Assembly (NCBI GenBank): GCA_963170165.1 | Contig: CAUJGQ010000030.1 | Coordinates: forward strand, 1-35,357 | Reading direction: 5' to 3' | From: Chloroflexota bacterium | Lineage (GTDB): Bacteria; Chloroflexota; Dehalococcoidia; CAUJGQ01 | Length of the DNA stretch: 35,357 bases | Shown here: piece after piece, positions 11,755-22,294 of the stretch | How the letters are laid out: each line of letters opens with the position of its first letter | Position numbering within the stretch: the first letter of the stretch is position 1 | Notes under the pieces: model-generated | Database searches by the model: none | The model's input: only the letters and a program-made list of their open reading frames with translations | What the model was told of the DNA's origin: nothing | Position numbers and translations under genes: made by a program

Positions 11755-13647
<1,893 letters not shown>

Positions 13648-13677: not shown

Positions 13678-13708
13678 ACCGGCTCCGCCTTGTGGAAGCG
13701 GAGCCGGT
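13678..13708 (+). terminator. Hairpin after dnaK
   Basis: An 11-bp perfect stem (ACCGGCTCCGC pairing with GCGGAGCCGGT) with a 9-base loop, 30 bases after the dnaK stop. There is no downstream T-run, which is common in GC-rich genomes. It is read as a terminator or 3'-end stabiliser of the hrcA-grpE-dnaK transcript. Confidence 0.65.
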
Positions 13709-13772
13709 CCGCTGTGTGCTGGCCTTCGTTACACTACGGGCATCACGCGTCGCGCCGGAGCCGCCCGCCATC

Positions 13773-14564
13773 ATGGCCCTTTCCCTCCGAACGGTCACCG
13801 TCACCCGTTACGTGGCGCCACTGCGCGAAGGTGGCTCGCTCCCGGCGATTGTCGAGGCCGATGACCTCGGCACGTACGTGCTCAAGTTCCGAGGCGCGGG
13901 TCAGGGGCCGCGGGCGCTGGTGGCCGAGCTGGTCTCCGGCGAGATTGCGCGCGTGCTCGGCCTGCCGGTGCCGGAGCTGGTCTTCGCGCACCTAGACCCC
14001 GTGCTTGGGCGGAACGAAGGCGATCCCGAGATTCAGGATCTGATTCGCGCTTCCGCCGGGCTCAATCTCGCGATGGACTTCCTGCCTGGGGCGTTCGCCT
14101 ACGACCCGCTCACCGGGCCGCCGCTGGAACCTGACCTCGCATCCGCGATTGTCTGGTTTGACGCGCTGGTGACCAACGTCGACCGCACCGTCCGGAACAC
14201 GAACATGCTCGTCTGGCATCGCCGTCCCTACCTGATCGACAATGGCGCATCGCTCTACATGCACTTTGCCTGGCAAAACGCCGCAGCCCGCGCCCGATCA
14301 CCCTTCCTGCAGGTCAAGGATCACGTGCTGCTGCGGCAGGCTTCGACGCTGTCAGAGGTCGATGACCGCCTGGCCGCTTTGCTGCTGCCGGAGGTTCTGA
14401 GCGAGATCGCGGCACAGATCCCAGATGAGTGGCTCCCAGAGGAGGAAATGTTCGCCACGGCGGCCGGGCAGCGAGCGGCGTACGTTTCGTGGCTGTCTGA
14501 CCGGTTGGTACCACCACGCGCCTTTACCACCGAGGCCATCCGTGTCCGATCTCAGCTCGTATGA
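13773..14564 (+). CDS. HipA-like kinase (HipA_2 type)
   Basis: A 263-residue protein resembling the kinase core of HipA, the Ser/Thr kinase toxin. Seen: a beta-strand-rich N-lobe with Lys38 in YVLKF, candidate for ATP binding. The catalytic-loop-like segment is WFDALVTNVDRTVRNTN (128-144), with Asp137 and Asn142/Asn144. LIDNGAS (154-160) has Asp156 in the DFG-equivalent position. This compact form corresponds to the stand-alone HipA-like family, usually found beside a DUF3037 gene rather than with the HipB antitoxin. Exactly that neighbour follows, overlapping by 23 bases. A longer frame from 13692 lacks a ribosome site and runs into the dnaK hairpin, so the ATG at 13773 is used. Target and toxicity are unknown. 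Confidence 0.8.
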   Translation: MALSLRTVTVTRYVAPLREGGSLPAIVEADDLGTYVLKFRGAGQGPRALVAELVSGEIARVLGLPVPELVFAHLDPVLGRNEGDPEIQDLIRASAGLNLAMDFLPGAFAYDPLTGPPLEPDLASAIVWFDALVTNVDRTVRNTNMLVWHRRPYLIDNGASLYMHFAWQNAAARARSPFLQVKDHVLLRQASTLSEVDDRLAALLLPEVLSEIAAQIPDEWLPEEEMFATAAGQRAAYVSWLSDRLVPPRAFTTEAIRVRSQLV

Positions 14565-14991: not shown

Positions 14992-16182
14992 GTGCGCCGT
15001 TCCGCTCCCGCCCTCGTGCTTGCCGGTATCGTGCTCGTTGCCGGCTGGATCGCCGCTTCTGCAGGCGCGCAACCGGCAGTACCCGCCGTGCATCAATCGC
15101 GCTACGCTGAGCTGGACGCGGCCCTGACAGCCATCGAACAGCTCGCCGCCGCGGCGCCGGGCTCAGACACCTTCACCAACCTCTCCGTCGAACTCAACAC
15201 TGCCAACTCCAATCGGGGCGAAGCGTTGCTTGTCCCGGAGACCTGGCCGGCTGTCCTGCTCACGCTGGACCGGTTGCAGGAGATCGGTGTGTCCACCGTG
15301 GCGGTGAGCCTCAACTTCCCCGTGCTCGCTCCTGCCTTCCCTCGCGCCACGGATTACCTGGACTTCTACCGCCGCGTTGCCGCCGAGGTGCGCGCCCGTG
15401 ACCTGCGGCTGATCATCGAGACCAGCACGATTTTCCCGGACTTCAGCACGCTTCCGGTCGATTACCGTGGCCTGACGCGCGAGCAGTACAGCGACGAGAA
15501 ACGCGCGATGGCCGCGACGGTCTACACCGAGTTGCGGCCGGACTACCTGACCGTGGAGAGCGAGCCAGGCACGGTCACGCGCAATACCGGCGTGGTCTTC
15601 ACGCCCGAGCAGTTTGCCGCGCACGTCCAGCATGTGACGCAGGACCTGACCGGAGGCAGCACCCGGCTGGGGGCAGGCGCCGGCACCTGGGACAGCCTTG
15701 AGTACTTCCGTGCCCTGGCCGGCGTGCCGGCGCTGCACTACCTCGATCTGCACATTTACCCGATTACCGGTGGCCTCGTCACAGAGCGCGTGCCGCGCAT
15801 CATTGAGATCGCGCGGGCGGCGGGTAAGGGGCTGACCATCGGCGAATCGTGGCTGTACAAGACCGGCGCGGCCGAACTCGGCGGCACACCCGGCTCCGAA
15901 GCCGCGGTATTCGCCCGAGACGCCTTCGGCTTCTGGGCGCCGCTCGACCAGCGATTCATCGCCGCCCTCGCGACGTTGGGGCGCGGACACGGATTCGAAT
16001 TCGTCTCGTACTTCTGGATGACCTATCTGTTCGCTTACGTGCCGTATGAGGAGCGCACCGCTGAGCTGAGCCCGCCCGAGCTAACACGCGTGGCGAATCA
16101 ACTGGCTTACCGTGCCATGCTGGAAGGTAGGCGGTCCCCTACCGGTGACGTGCTGCGGGCGCTCCTGCGTCCCGCGCCGTAG
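14992..16182 (+). CDS. Exported TIM-barrel glycoside hydrolase-like protein
   Basis: A 396-residue protein with an N-terminal signal segment (about residues 5-26: hydrophobic core ALVLAGIVLVAGWIAASAGA, likely cleavage after AGA). The remainder alternates strands and helices like a clan-A (beta/alpha)8 barrel. LTVESEPGT (186-194), after a strand, and LTIGESWLY (281-289), near the last strands, place Glu189 or Glu191 and Glu285 as candidate acid/base and nucleophile. LHIYPI (253-258) is also typical of such barrels. No specific GH family was recognised. The GTG start has GAGGGGG just upstream. It is followed 71 bases later by a GT-C membrane protein, so the pair could act on cell-surface or environmental glycans. 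Confidence 0.6.
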   Translation: MRRSAPALVLAGIVLVAGWIAASAGAQPAVPAVHQSRYAELDAALTAIEQLAAAAPGSDTFTNLSVELNTANSNRGEALLVPETWPAVLLTLDRLQEIGVSTVAVSLNFPVLAPAFPRATDYLDFYRRVAAEVRARDLRLIIETSTIFPDFSTLPVDYRGLTREQYSDEKRAMAATVYTELRPDYLTVESEPGTVTRNTGVVFTPEQFAAHVQHVTQDLTGGSTRLGAGAGTWDSLEYFRALAGVPALHYLDLHIYPITGGLVTERVPRIIEIARAAGKGLTIGESWLYKTGAAELGGTPGSEAAVFARDAFGFWAPLDQRFIAALATLGRGHGFEFVSYFWMTYLFAYVPYEERTAELSPPELTRVANQLAYRAMLEGRRSPTGDVLRALLRPAP

Positions 16183-16253
16183 CCCACCGGCTGCGGCGCC
16201 GTGGGTATACTGGCAGCGGGGAAATATCCGCACGCAGTGCCCACGGAGCCGCC

Positions 16254-17663
16254 ATGACGGCGCGCCGGCGCTTCCTCCTTGGCCTGCTGATTGTTCAGCT
16301 CGGCGTTACGGTGGCCTATGCGCCCACCCTCAACGATTACTTCGCCGGCGATGACTTCCTCGTCATCGGTCCGGTTGGCCGGATGGGCGCCTGGGAGGTG
16401 ACCGCCAAAGCGTTTGTCATGCGTGATGACATTCCCTATTGGCGGCCCCTGGTAACGCCGCTGTACGCCCTCTACGTCCACGGCTTTGGCCTCAACCCGA
16501 TGCCATATCATCTCGTGGTGCTGGGGCTGCATCTCACCAATGTGACTCTGGTAGCAGTGGCCGCACGTCTGCTGCTGCGGCAGAGCGGCGTAGCGCTGGC
16601 GGCCGGGCTGCTGTTCGGTGTCCATGCGGCGCATACCCTGACCGTTGCGCAGATATCGTCGACGGTCGAGCTGTTCAGCGTCGTGTGGTATCTGGGCAGC
16701 GTGTGTGCCGCACTGTACTGGTTGAAGGTGCGGGGCCGGCCGGGCGCCGGCCGCTGGTACGGTGCGGCAGTCCTGTGCTTCGTGCTGGCGCTGCTGTCCA
16801 AAGAGTCGACGGCATCGGCGGCGGGTACCCTCACGGTGCTGTTTCTCTTGCGTGTCTACCTGCCTGGCCGGCAGGCCGCGCGCTTTGTGCGGGCGGTGGC
16901 GCCGTTCTGGCTGCTCGTGTTGCCGTACATTGCCTTCACCTATATCACCGACACTGAGGACCCAACAGGCATCACGCGGATGCTCTACGCACCAGGCTGG
17001 CATGTTCCTACAAACCTGTGGTGGATGGTCGCGCGGCTGGCCTGGCCGGTGGGGAATGGGCAGGGGCCGGTGATCAGCGCCGCCGCGCACACCGGCGCGG
17101 TGGCGGTCACGGCTGCCGCCCTTATCGTGGCGGTGCGCGGTCAGGCTGCCAGCCGCTTCCTTGTTGCCTGGATGGTCATTGCCATGACACCGCTGACCCT
17201 GTGGCGGCCGGACATGATGCTCAGCCGGTTCACGTATCAGGCAGCGGCGCCCTTTGCCATGCTTTGCGCCTGGGGTGGATGGCTGCTGCTCCGCCGGCTC
17301 CCACTGCGCCAGTCGCGGGCGCCGGTTGGGCTGGCCGCTCTGGCGATAGTGGCTGCGCTGCTGGCGTGGCTGACGGCCGGCCAGAACCGCGTACGCACCC
17401 GCGAGGCTGACTCCTACTTCTTGCTGGTGCACGAGCTGCGGCGGACCGTCCCGCAGCCGCCAGCAGGCAGCGAGGTGGTGATTATGGATGGACCATGGTC
17501 CGGCCCATTTCACGCCCTCTATTTGGAGGCCGTGGCTGAAACGCTGTATGGCCGCGACACGGTGCGCCTGCGAAACGTCGACTCGGGCGAGCCGGCGCCG
17601 GCGGTGTCGGCCGGCGCGGTGCTCCTGCGATACACCGGCTCGATGCTGGTAGCGGGCCGCTAG
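16254..17663 (+). CDS. Multi-TM GT-C-like glycosyltransferase family membrane protein
   Basis: A 469-residue protein with about ten hydrophobic segments. After the first membrane helix comes LNDYFAGDDFLVIG, with Asp33-Asp34. An acidic pair in the first outer loop is the hallmark of GT-C glycosyltransferases that use polyprenyl-phosphate sugars (ArnT, PMT and relatives). A cytoplasmic-type loop LLSKEST and a soluble C-terminal tail of ~90 residues follow. The ATG at 16254 follows a TATACT hexamer (16206-16211) that could be a -10. Donor and acceptor are unknown. Its stop codon overlaps that of the convergent FAD oxidase in a shared CTAG. Confidence 0.65.
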   Translation: MTARRRFLLGLLIVQLGVTVAYAPTLNDYFAGDDFLVIGPVGRMGAWEVTAKAFVMRDDIPYWRPLVTPLYALYVHGFGLNPMPYHLVVLGLHLTNVTLVAVAARLLLRQSGVALAAGLLFGVHAAHTLTVAQISSTVELFSVVWYLGSVCAALYWLKVRGRPGAGRWYGAAVLCFVLALLSKESTASAAGTLTVLFLLRVYLPGRQAARFVRAVAPFWLLVLPYIAFTYITDTEDPTGITRMLYAPGWHVPTNLWWMVARLAWPVGNGQGPVISAAAHTGAVAVTAAALIVAVRGQAASRFLVAWMVIAMTPLTLWRPDMMLSRFTYQAAAPFAMLCAWGGWLLLRRLPLRQSRAPVGLAALAIVAALLAWLTAGQNRVRTREADSYFLLVHELRRTVPQPPAGSEVVIMDGPWSGPFHALYLEAVAETLYGRDTVRLRNVDSGEPAPAVSAGAVLLRYTGSMLVAGR

Positions 17664-19432: not shown

Positions 19433-20848
19433 CTATGCCGGCTCCTTGCCCGCGCGCAGCAGCCAGCCGAAGGGACGGCGCCGGCGGCCTTGCTGGCGCT
19501 GTGCCAGACGGTGGGCCCGCCGCTCGGAGTCGGCCATGATTTCCTCCGCCTGCCGCGCCTGCCACTCCGCCACCCGCCGCTGCACCAGCCGGGACAGTAA
19601 CTCGCGGTGATTGATCGTCGCGTCCTCGTAGTGCGGGGCGATCTCGATTGCCTGCTGGAACAGCGCCAACGCCTCCTCAATCTCACCCATCAGTAGTTGG
19701 TCGATGGCCTGGCGGTTGAGACGCACCGCCTCCTCCGGGATATCCGGCGGCGGCCCCCAGGTAAGAACGACGGGGTGGGCTCCCGCCAGTCCCTTCATCA
19801 TGCCGGTCTGCATGATACCCGCTGCGGCCGCTGGTACGGCTGCCGCAGCCGGCGAGACCACATCGCTGGAAGGTGGGGGAGGGACGTGGCGAGGCGGTGG
19901 CACGGACGGGACATAATCCACCAGCGCAGGCGCCGGTGCACGGGCAGCGCGGGCACGAGATCGCGCCGGAACCGCGGCCGGCGCCGGTTCCGGCACGTCC
20001 CCATTGCGCGGAGCGGGAGAGGCGGCGCGACCGCGTGGAGCCTGCTCGGCGAGGAAGTCGCGCATCTGCACCCACGCCTCACGCACCGTGGCCTCGCCGC
20101 CGGCCGGGCCGTTGACGATCCCGAGGCGGGAGTTGCGCAGGCTTGCGTGAATGCCACGCGCCTCGTCATCGGAGATGAGCCGGTCGTAGACTCCGTAGGC
20201 CAGGAGCACGGGGGCGGCCACTTCATCCAGTACCGCCAGCGCATCGGCGTCAAGATACGCCTCGTACAGCCGTGCCGCGGTCTGGCCATCGACCGTCCGC
20301 GCCATGAGCGTACCAAGCTCGGCGGCATGGATATCGTCATCGACGATGGTGCGCGCCAGTGCCCGCAGGCCGGCTCGCGGCCGCGAGGTGAGGGTATGCA
20401 GCAGCATCGTGCTGCCAGGGCCCTTGATCGGCCGGAGCGCCGGGTCGACCAGTACCACCCGGGCCACGCGCTCCGGCGCCTGCGCCGCAATCCGCAGCGC
20501 CAGTGGCGCCGATTCACCCATGCCGGCGATGACCGCGCTGTGCACGCCCGCATGCGTCATCACGGCGAGGACGTCTTCAACCATCGCCTCAGTGGAGATG
20601 CGCTCGATGTTGCGTTCAGACCGGCCGGTGCCGCGCCGGTCGTGGACGATGACCCGGAATGACCGCGAGAGCTGATGGATGAACGTGCGCGGGTCACGCA
20701 CGGCATCCTCAATCGCTGACCAGAAGGGCTGCAGCACAATGACGTCTACGTCGCCATCGCCCAGCACCTGGTAAGCGATACGGGCGTCGCCCGTCTGTAC
20801 CAGGCGGGTCGCCTCCTGGCCGGCAACCGGCCGGGTGGTGCGAGGCAC
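19433..20848 (-). CDS. Degenerate alpha/beta-hydrolase-fold protein with C-terminal TPR-like region
   Basis: A 471-residue protein. Residues ~15-260 follow the hydrolase fold found in cyclase- and LuxR-fused sensors: VIVHDRRGTGRSERN, then the nucleophile elbow region VIAGMGESAPLALRIA and PERVARVVLVDPALR. At the elbow the sequence GMGES (109-113) puts Gly111 where Ser is expected. The acid Asp is kept (YGVYDRLI), but the His position reads NGPAGGEA, without His. Catalysis is therefore unlikely. A ~100-residue Pro/Ala-rich linker follows, then a helical TPR-like segment (AIDQLLMGEIEEALALFQQA) and a basic tail. The GTG at 20848 is chosen because GAGGAGG (20854-20860) stands 5 bases before it. 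This site touches the stop of the upstream HTH gene, which suggests coupled translation. Confidence 0.72.
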   Translation of the reverse strand: MPRTTRPVAGQEATRLVQTGDARIAYQVLGDGDVDVIVLQPFWSAIEDAVRDPRTFIHQLSRSFRVIVHDRRGTGRSERNIERISTEAMVEDVLAVMTHAGVHSAVIAGMGESAPLALRIAAQAPERVARVVLVDPALRPIKGPGSTMLLHTLTSRPRAGLRALARTIVDDDIHAAELGTLMARTVDGQTAARLYEAYLDADALAVLDEVAAPVLLAYGVYDRLISDDEARGIHASLRNSRLGIVNGPAGGEATVREAWVQMRDFLAEQAPRGRAASPAPRNGDVPEPAPAAVPARSRARAARAPAPALVDYVPSVPPPRHVPPPPSSDVVSPAAAAVPAAAAGIMQTGMMKGLAGAHPVVLTWGPPPDIPEEAVRLNRQAIDQLLMGEIEEALALFQQAIEIAPHYEDATINHRELLSRLVQRRVAEWQARQAEEIMADSERRAHRLAQRQQGRRRRPFGWLLRAGKEPA

Positions 20849-20853
20849 GGTGA

Positions 20854-20860
20854 CCTCCTC
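20854..20860 (-). promoter_or_regulatory. Ribosome binding site at the HTH/hydrolase-fold junction
   Basis: GAGGAGG on the minus strand, 5 bases before the GTG at 20848 and touching the last base of the HTH gene's stop codon. It decides the start of the hydrolase-fold protein and indicates translational coupling. Confidence 0.6.
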
Positions 20861-21462
20861 TAGCCCCGAGACACCAGCGGCAGCCGCTGCCACCACTGCC
20901 GCTGATGCTGCTCGAACAATTGCCGGACCGGCTCCAGCAGGTCATCGCGTGAGTCCGGCCGCGACAGCGCCAGCTCCTCTACCGGATGAGTCATGGGGTT
21001 TGGCCGGAGCGCCTGCGGTGGCCCGCCTCCTGCCCTTAGGAATGCTTCGAGTGGTGGGATGCCTGCACCGTCGGCCCCGCACGCTATCTCAGTAGCAGTG
21101 CCGTCCGTATGGTCAGGCAGACGCTCGACCGCAGGCCGCCGCTGCGTGGACCGGTGGCGGCCGTTGCCAGCACTGCCCGGGGCGCGCTCGCCATCGCAAC
21201 GTGCGCTCTGCAGCATCGCCGTCAGCCGTTCAATGGTGGTGGTGAGCCGCGCGACCTGGGCGGTCAACGGCGTACCGTCGGCTGCCAGCGGCGCGCCGGC
21301 GTCATCATCGGCTGTGAGCAAAACGCGCGTGTAGACGCGGCTACCGTGGGGTTCGGCGTACGCGCGTAGCCGCCCTTCCAGAATCTGGTGCCAAACTGCA
21401 GAGCAGGGCACACCGAGGTGTTCGGCGGCGGTCGCAACGCTGACCGACCCATCCTTCCACAT
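20860..21462 (-). CDS. Small HTH DNA-binding-like protein
   Basis: A 200-residue protein. After MWKDGS, the segment VSVATAAEHLGVPCSAVWHQ (with ILEGRLRAYAEPHGSRVY) has the layout of an excisionase/MerR helix-turn-helix with a following wing. A short coiled-coil-like stretch, LTAQVARLTTTIERLTAMLQ, comes next, then a low-complexity region rich in Gly, Arg and Pro, and a helical C-terminus ending in EQHQRQWWQRLPLVSRG. The rest is not recognised. The ATG at 21462 is preferred over an in-frame GTG further up (21501). Its stop is 11 bases before the GTG of the degenerate hydrolase gene, so the two probably work together. Confidence 0.62.
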   Translation of the reverse strand: MWKDGSVSVATAAEHLGVPCSAVWHQILEGRLRAYAEPHGSRVYTRVLLTADDDAGAPLAADGTPLTAQVARLTTTIERLTAMLQSARCDGERAPGSAGNGRHRSTQRRPAVERLPDHTDGTATEIACGADGAGIPPLEAFLRAGGGPPQALRPNPMTHPVEELALSRPDSRDDLLEPVRQLFEQHQRQWWQRLPLVSRG

Positions 21463-21604: not shown

Positions 21605-22294
21605 TCAAACCGACTGATCAGCCGGGTCGCGTGGGATGGAGCGAGCGGCGGTCACAAACGCCCGCACCAGCGCATGATCGGTGCTGCCGTCGGACCGCTC
21701 CACTCCGGTGTGCGTGTCGACGGCCCAGGGACGTACCATTGCGATAGCCTTCGCGACGTTGCCTGGGCCCAGCCCGCCGGCCAGGATCACCGGCACAGCC
21801 ACCGATGCCACGATGTCCCGGCTGATGGACCAATCGTGCGTGAGGCCAGTGGCGCCGTGCCGGCCGGTCAACGGGTCATAGGTGTCGAGGATGATGGCGT
21901 CGGCGTCGCGTGCTGCCAACCGAGCTGCATCGAGGGCAGCCGGACCGGTGACGTGTACGGCACGGATGATCTTCAGCCCTGGCAGGGCGGCCCGCATCGC
22001 CCGCACCTCTTCATGCTCAGCACCACCGTGCAACTGCACTGTCAGGACGCCCAAATACCGGCACAACGGCGCCACTTCCGCTGCCGTGGAGTGGTAAGTG
22101 ATCAGCACCGGGGTGATCATCGGAGGCAGCGCCTGAATGATCGTGCGCGCTCTGTGCTCATCGAGACCGTTGTGCGGGCCACCGGGCAGGCCGATCGTGA
22201 AGCCAATACCGTCGGCGCCCGCCTGTTCGACGGCCAGCGCATCTTCAAGGGTAGAAATCCCGGCGATCTGGACTCGCACTGCACGAACACCCAT
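21605..22294 (-). CDS. TrpF (phosphoribosylanthranilate isomerase)-like protein lacking the catalytic Cys
   Basis: A 229-residue (beta/alpha)8 protein of TrpF type. Seen: VQIAGIS (8-14) where TrpF has KICGI, QLHGGAE (87-93), IILDTYD (134-140) with the general-acid Asp137, GATG (147-150) with DW soon after, the phosphate-binding AGGLGPGNV (172-180) and VDTHTGVE (192-199) where VDVSSGVE is usual. The first-strand Cys, the general base in TrpF, is replaced by Ala11. The substrate-phosphate end of the barrel is kept. It is not next to other trp genes. It may isomerise a related phosphoribosylamine, or be an inactive homologue. It lies 142 bases upstream of the HTH gene on the same strand and divergent from the HAD phosphatase. 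Confidence 0.75.
   Translation of the reverse strand: MGVRAVRVQIAGISTLEDALAVEQAGADGIGFTIGLPGGPHNGLDEHRARTIIQALPPMITPVLITYHSTAAEVAPLCRYLGVLTVQLHGGAEHEEVRAMRAALPGLKIIRAVHVTGPAALDAARLAARDADAIILDTYDPLTGRHGATGLTHDWSISRDIVASVAVPVILAGGLGPGNVAKAIAMVRPWAVDTHTGVERSDGSTDHALVRAFVTAARSIPRDPADQSV

Follow-up and report, generated by a model that had tools for sequence, protein, structure and literature searches.

The window, that is the whole stretch of 35,357 nucleotides of Chloroflexota DNA analysed here, carries on its minus strand two neighbouring genes, the first for a probable helix-turn-helix (HTH) protein and the second for a protein with a hydrolase fold. Residues of gene 2 are counted from its GTG start codon, while the numbers of its AlphaFold model are one higher. 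The features of the pair are the following:

20860-21462, minus strand: gene 1 (HTH protein), 200 aa, ATG start; probable HTH_17/excisionase-like domain, predicted short coiled coil and long disordered-looking remainder
21313-21447, minus strand: probable HTH and wing of gene 1, about residues 6-50 (alignment of relatives and profile test)
21202-21267, minus strand: predicted coiled-coil helix of gene 1, about residues 66-87 (low-confidence model; same architecture in relatives)
20854-20859, minus strand: AGGAGG ribosome site of gene 2, directly 3' of the gene 1 TAG (sequence)
19433-20848, minus strand: gene 2 (pseudo-hydrolase), 471 aa, GTG start; hydrolase domain, linker and TPR-like tail
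20048-20809, minus strand: alpha/beta-hydrolase domain, about residues 14-267 (Pfam, AlphaFold, Foldseek)
20510-20524, minus strand: nucleophile elbow GMGES with Gly111 in the Ser slot (sequence and alignment)
20183-20185, minus strand: Asp222, the acid position, kept (alignment)
20090-20113, minus strand: His-loop region NGPAGGEA, without His (alignment)
19757-20026, minus strand: Pro/Ala-rich disordered linker, about residues 275-364 (model 276-365; pLDDT below 50)
19640-19735, minus strand: one TPR-like helical hairpin (Pfam TPR_1 E 1e-4, below cut-off; AlphaFold helices)
19481-19630, minus strand: long basic C-terminal helix (AlphaFold)

The junction of the two genes reads TAG-AGGAGG-TCACC-GTG, so that the ribosome site of gene 2 abuts the stop codon of gene 1 and the gap measures 11 bp, in agreement with the original prediction. 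Both frames show a codon signal, which is strong in gene 2, at 0.30 bits per codon, and in gene 1 weak over the C-terminal half. Upstream of gene 1, on the same strand and 142 bp away, lies a PRA isomerase (TrpF-like) gene (21605-22294, minus strand), and downstream of gene 2 an AsnC-type gene converges on it; trp genes are absent among the neighbours examined, and the relative of this isomerase in the same-family genome G001 sits among apparent trp genes. PADLOC returned no match to either protein of the pair. Elsewhere in the window, a gene on the plus strand matching HipA_2 (HipA-like kinase, 13692-14564) adjoins a DnaK/Hsp70 gene (11755-13647); two long open frames of the plus strand (14992-16182 and 16254-17663) have no Pfam match, the second being overlapped by an antisense frame (16107-17513) likewise without a match.

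The domain of gene 2 belongs to the alpha/beta-hydrolase fold superfamily, with 43.2 bits against Pfam Abhydrolase_1 (cut-off 25.8); AlphaFold predicts a complete hydrolase fold, in blocks mostly of 81-98 pLDDT, and the top Foldseek matches of the model are solved PDB hydrolases with E-values down to 2.8e-17, the structures of KAI2 and D14 being among the matches. The elbow is formed by G109-M110-G111-E112-S113, with Gly111 at the turn between the strand 106-111 and the helix 112-124 (model numbering). The column of this glycine holds Ser in 33 of the 52 aligned hydrolase domains, and in the alignment the His loop reads IVNGPAGGEA and is devoid of His; neither the Ser of a GxSxG motif nor the catalytic His, the marks of catalytic serine alpha/beta-hydrolases, is therefore found in gene 2. 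S113 was considered as a shifted nucleophile and discarded, its column being mostly Gly (35/52), and in the alignment the domain has no Ser or His in a catalytic column and none plausible as a shifted replacement. The Gly in the Ser slot of GMGES and the His-less NGPAGGEA, both read originally from the letters, are thus borne out by the alignment at residues 109-113 and at the His position, and the retention of the other landmarks by the complete predicted fold. Judging from its sequence, gene 2 is not catalytic by the usual Ser-His route.

The remainder of gene 2 is modelled much as it had been anticipated, with a Pro/Ala linker followed by a TPR-like helical region: after the disordered linker, AlphaFold places helices at 373-387, 391-404 and 408-457 (model numbering), and Pfam recognises one sub-threshold TPR repeat (22.4 bits, cut-off 27.8), which falls short of the several repeats above cut-off that define a TPR protein. 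Used as a query, the C-terminal tail gave two marginal matches only. Among the HTH/coiled-coil proteins L087, L089 and L096, several have an aromatic/basic motif (WWRFWRR, FWIRLLGR) at their C-terminus, and the end of gene 2 (19433-19500), RRRRPFGWLLRAGKEPA, is similar to it.

The matches of gene 2 in the class and phylum share 26-40% identity with it, and most of them belong to signalling proteins. In the alignment A1 of 43 full-length rows, to which the window's own genome contributes six hydrolases, ordinary ones or ones with other fusions, Guanylate_cyc (class III cyclase) is carried by 28 rows, GerE (LuxR-type HTH) by two, BTAD by two and TIR by one. The careful tree assigns the domain of gene 2 to a clade of 43 rows (99/95), most of them fused to outputs, and places it outside a 41-row group (98/96) that holds the tested effector fusions; the comparison originally drawn with hydrolase folds joined to cyclases and LuxR regulators is supported by this clade, in which BTAD and TIR proteins are further partners. 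The TIR fusion (L017:1414-2736, plus strand) and both BTAD fusions (L054:1078-2808, minus strand, and L056:676-2352, plus strand) keep the Ser.

The nucleophile Ser is missing in 19 of the 52 sampled hydrolase domains, where Gly, Leu, Thr, Ala, Trp, Tyr or Glu takes its place, so a Ser-less hydrolase within a signalling protein is common in the phylum. A Ser-less group of 14 rows comprises at least seven cyclase fusions; L021, L024, L025, L028, L030-L033 and L035-L037 are all Ser-less (L, G, T, W, Y, E or A), several of them being cyclase-fused. The careful tree requires four changes of Ser state, and none of the bootstrap trees gets by with a single change. Independent losses are nevertheless not advanced as a firm claim, since AU tests on the quick tree did not reject a single clade, whether it took in every Ser-less row (p 0.31) or was limited to those without a fusion (p 0.58).

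For gene 1, the matches to library profiles are insignificant (Pfam HTH_1 E 0.05, TIGR01764 E 0.17, PF12728 13.5 bits), and for this reason the HTH assignment relies on a profile of its relatives, made from seven HTH/coiled-coil proteins (HTH_17-type domain plus coiled coil) with gene 1 left out, against which gene 1 scores 28.9 bits and the best of 2000 shuffles 8.7. This test is not wholly independent, as the members of the profile were gathered from L040, a protein itself found with gene 1. Residues A12, L16, G17, G30 and L32 are invariant in the alignment of the HTH with its relatives. The single-sequence structure of gene 1 (pLDDT 44.5) was too poor for use, and weak matches in L058 and L061 were set aside, falling in the low-complexity C-terminal half. 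Gene 1 is, from these comparisons, probably a DNA-binding protein of the HTH_17 type. The window also encodes, at 850-1518 on the minus strand, a second HTH_17/MerR-type protein, whose additional C-terminal part is without a Pfam match.

The best foreign match of gene 1 as sole query among 393 genomes of the class (E 4.6e-4) was L040, a chain of 425 aa in which an HTH_17-like domain (26.7 bits, cut-off 27), a coiled coil and an alpha/beta hydrolase with the elbow GTAFG are united. L086, from another genome of the same family as L040, is 38% identical to it over most of its length and has the elbow GTGLG. Both genomes belong to the class of the window's genome and to another family, and the coupling of an HTH protein to a non-catalytic hydrolase, as originally proposed, finds in these two Ser-less fusions a counterpart. 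Both proteins keep the catalytic His, and an apparently intact hydrolase gene lies upstream of L040. Their hydrolase domains share only 23-25% identity with that of gene 2 and in the tree are not members of its clade; an AU test on the quick tree did not, however, reject their grouping with gene 2. A standalone protein, L114, is as similar to the HTH of gene 1 as L040 is, and no hydrolase is linked to it; among about 57 loci that encode HTH relatives, a linked hydrolase on the same strand occurs only in the two fusions, while at two others a hydrolase frame runs on the other strand. On the sequence evidence, L040 and L086 are read as a parallel or distant case and not as orthologs; they support the link between HTH and hydrolase, even though the subfamily of their hydrolase domains is a different one.

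The original prediction had named a lack of conservation of the two genes together as something that would refute it, and no such conservation was found: the pair was absent from all other genomes searched (393 of the class, 400 of the phylum and G001, the one other available member of the family), and no ortholog of either gene was found in them, the window's genome being the sole representative of its genus in these searches. A scan of genome contigs gave one irrelevant Paracoccus match. Synteny with G001 was also rejected, as the homologues of the FAD oxidase and of the PRA isomerase share a contig there but are separated by other genes.

The best reading of the pair, to which an even chance may be given, is a ligand-sensing two-gene regulatory module, gene 2 most likely sensing something rather than digesting it. 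What was once the substrate pocket of the non-catalytic hydrolase domain would bind a small molecule or an acyl/ester-like ligand; the ligand state would pass, via the flexible linker and the TPR-like tail or directly, to the gene 1 protein, and this co-expressed HTH/coiled-coil protein would act on DNA. Co-expression, ligand binding, contact between the proteins, DNA binding and any target gene are here what we infer. This module is favoured by the loss of both Ser and His in an intact, well-predicted fold, by the 11 bp gap with its ribosome site against the stop, by the clade of gene 2, mostly fused to outputs and with several members also Ser-less, by the union in L040 and L086 of HTH_17/coiled coil with a hydrolase whose Ser slot holds Ala or Gly, and by the retrieval of L040 with gene 1 alone together with the score of gene 1 against the relatives' profile. 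It is disfavoured by the absence of the pair from every other genome searched, by the rarity of a linked hydrolase at the loci of the HTH relatives, L114 included, by the distance, separate tree position and retained His of the L040 and L086 hydrolases, and by the spacer upstream of gene 1, in which no clear inverted repeat was found. Possible, with less confidence, is that the regulator is split over two genes, a GID1-like pseudo-hydrolase receptor controlling an HTH_17/coiled-coil protein, with the fused versions occurring in other genera of the class.

A somewhat unlikely alternative makes gene 2 a protein scaffold instead of a small-molecule sensor, the dead hydrolase fold and the TPR-like tail binding partners and the HTH protein serving as a regulator or as autoregulator of the operon. 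The TPR-like hairpin, the disordered linker and the long basic helix would suit protein interaction, and with nucleophile and His both gone the chemistry need not be kept; however, the hairpin is single, and the outputs of the relatives are signalling domains, better suited to an input domain. It is unlikely that the two genes are chance neighbours, a lineage-specific non-catalytic hydrolase protein adjoining an unrelated HTH protein: the lack of conservation and the usual absence of a hydrolase near HTH relatives speak for it, but the ribosome site of gene 2 abuts the stop of gene 1 and parallel fusions of an HTH with a Ser-less hydrolase exist in two other genomes. That gene 2 is still an enzyme by another route, Asp222 or another residue replacing the Ser-His pair, is very improbable, for although the acid is kept and the fold complete, the catalytic columns contain no Ser or His of the domain and Gly111 is incapable of acting as a nucleophile.

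If the ligand-sensing module is the true reading, dead hydrolases have found a new use in bacteria as receptors for DNA-binding proteins, much as plants have turned them into hormone receptors. Of possibly greater importance is the pattern at large: in the phylum, roughly one in three of the hydrolase domains of this kind that were sampled has no nucleophile, many of these being fused to signalling domains, and for them the annotation 'lipase/cyclase' would mislead. A literature search, with subscription papers mostly outside its reach, found no description of this pattern.

Among known systems, the best NCBIfam match of the gene 2 domain (residues 11-242, E 3e-20) is to the LipJ/Rv1900c-type hydrolase-adenylate cyclase fusions (NF058673), in which the hydrolase domain is likewise the N-terminal module of a signalling protein; gene 2 differs in scoring 72 bits against a family cut-off of 800, in missing Ser and His and in carrying the linker and TPR-like tail in place of a class III cyclase, with no match to Guanylate_cyc. 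Within the phylum, L010, L037, L054 and L056, which are hydrolase-LuxR (GerE) or BTAD-hydrolase fusions, couple a hydrolase to a transcription-type output, as proposed here, and L010 and L037 are Ser-less like gene 2; all four are single chains with another output domain, whereas the probable HTH_17-type domain of the pair sits on a protein of its own. L040 and L086 resemble the pair in their HTH_17-type domain and coiled coil and in the Ala or Gly of their Ser slot, and differ in being one chain with the His kept, a hydrolase of another subfamily and no TPR-like tail. In plants, the gibberellin receptor GID1 is a hydrolase fold acting as a non-catalytic receptor, in which the His is lost and the Ser kept, while D14-type receptors keep the catalytic triad (PMC3531792). 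GID1 offers a precedent for a non-catalytic receptor of this fold, but it retains the Ser and its lineage and partners are unrelated to those of gene 2; RsbQ, KAI2 and D14 similarly use the hydrolase fold in signalling, as proposed for gene 2, with other partners.
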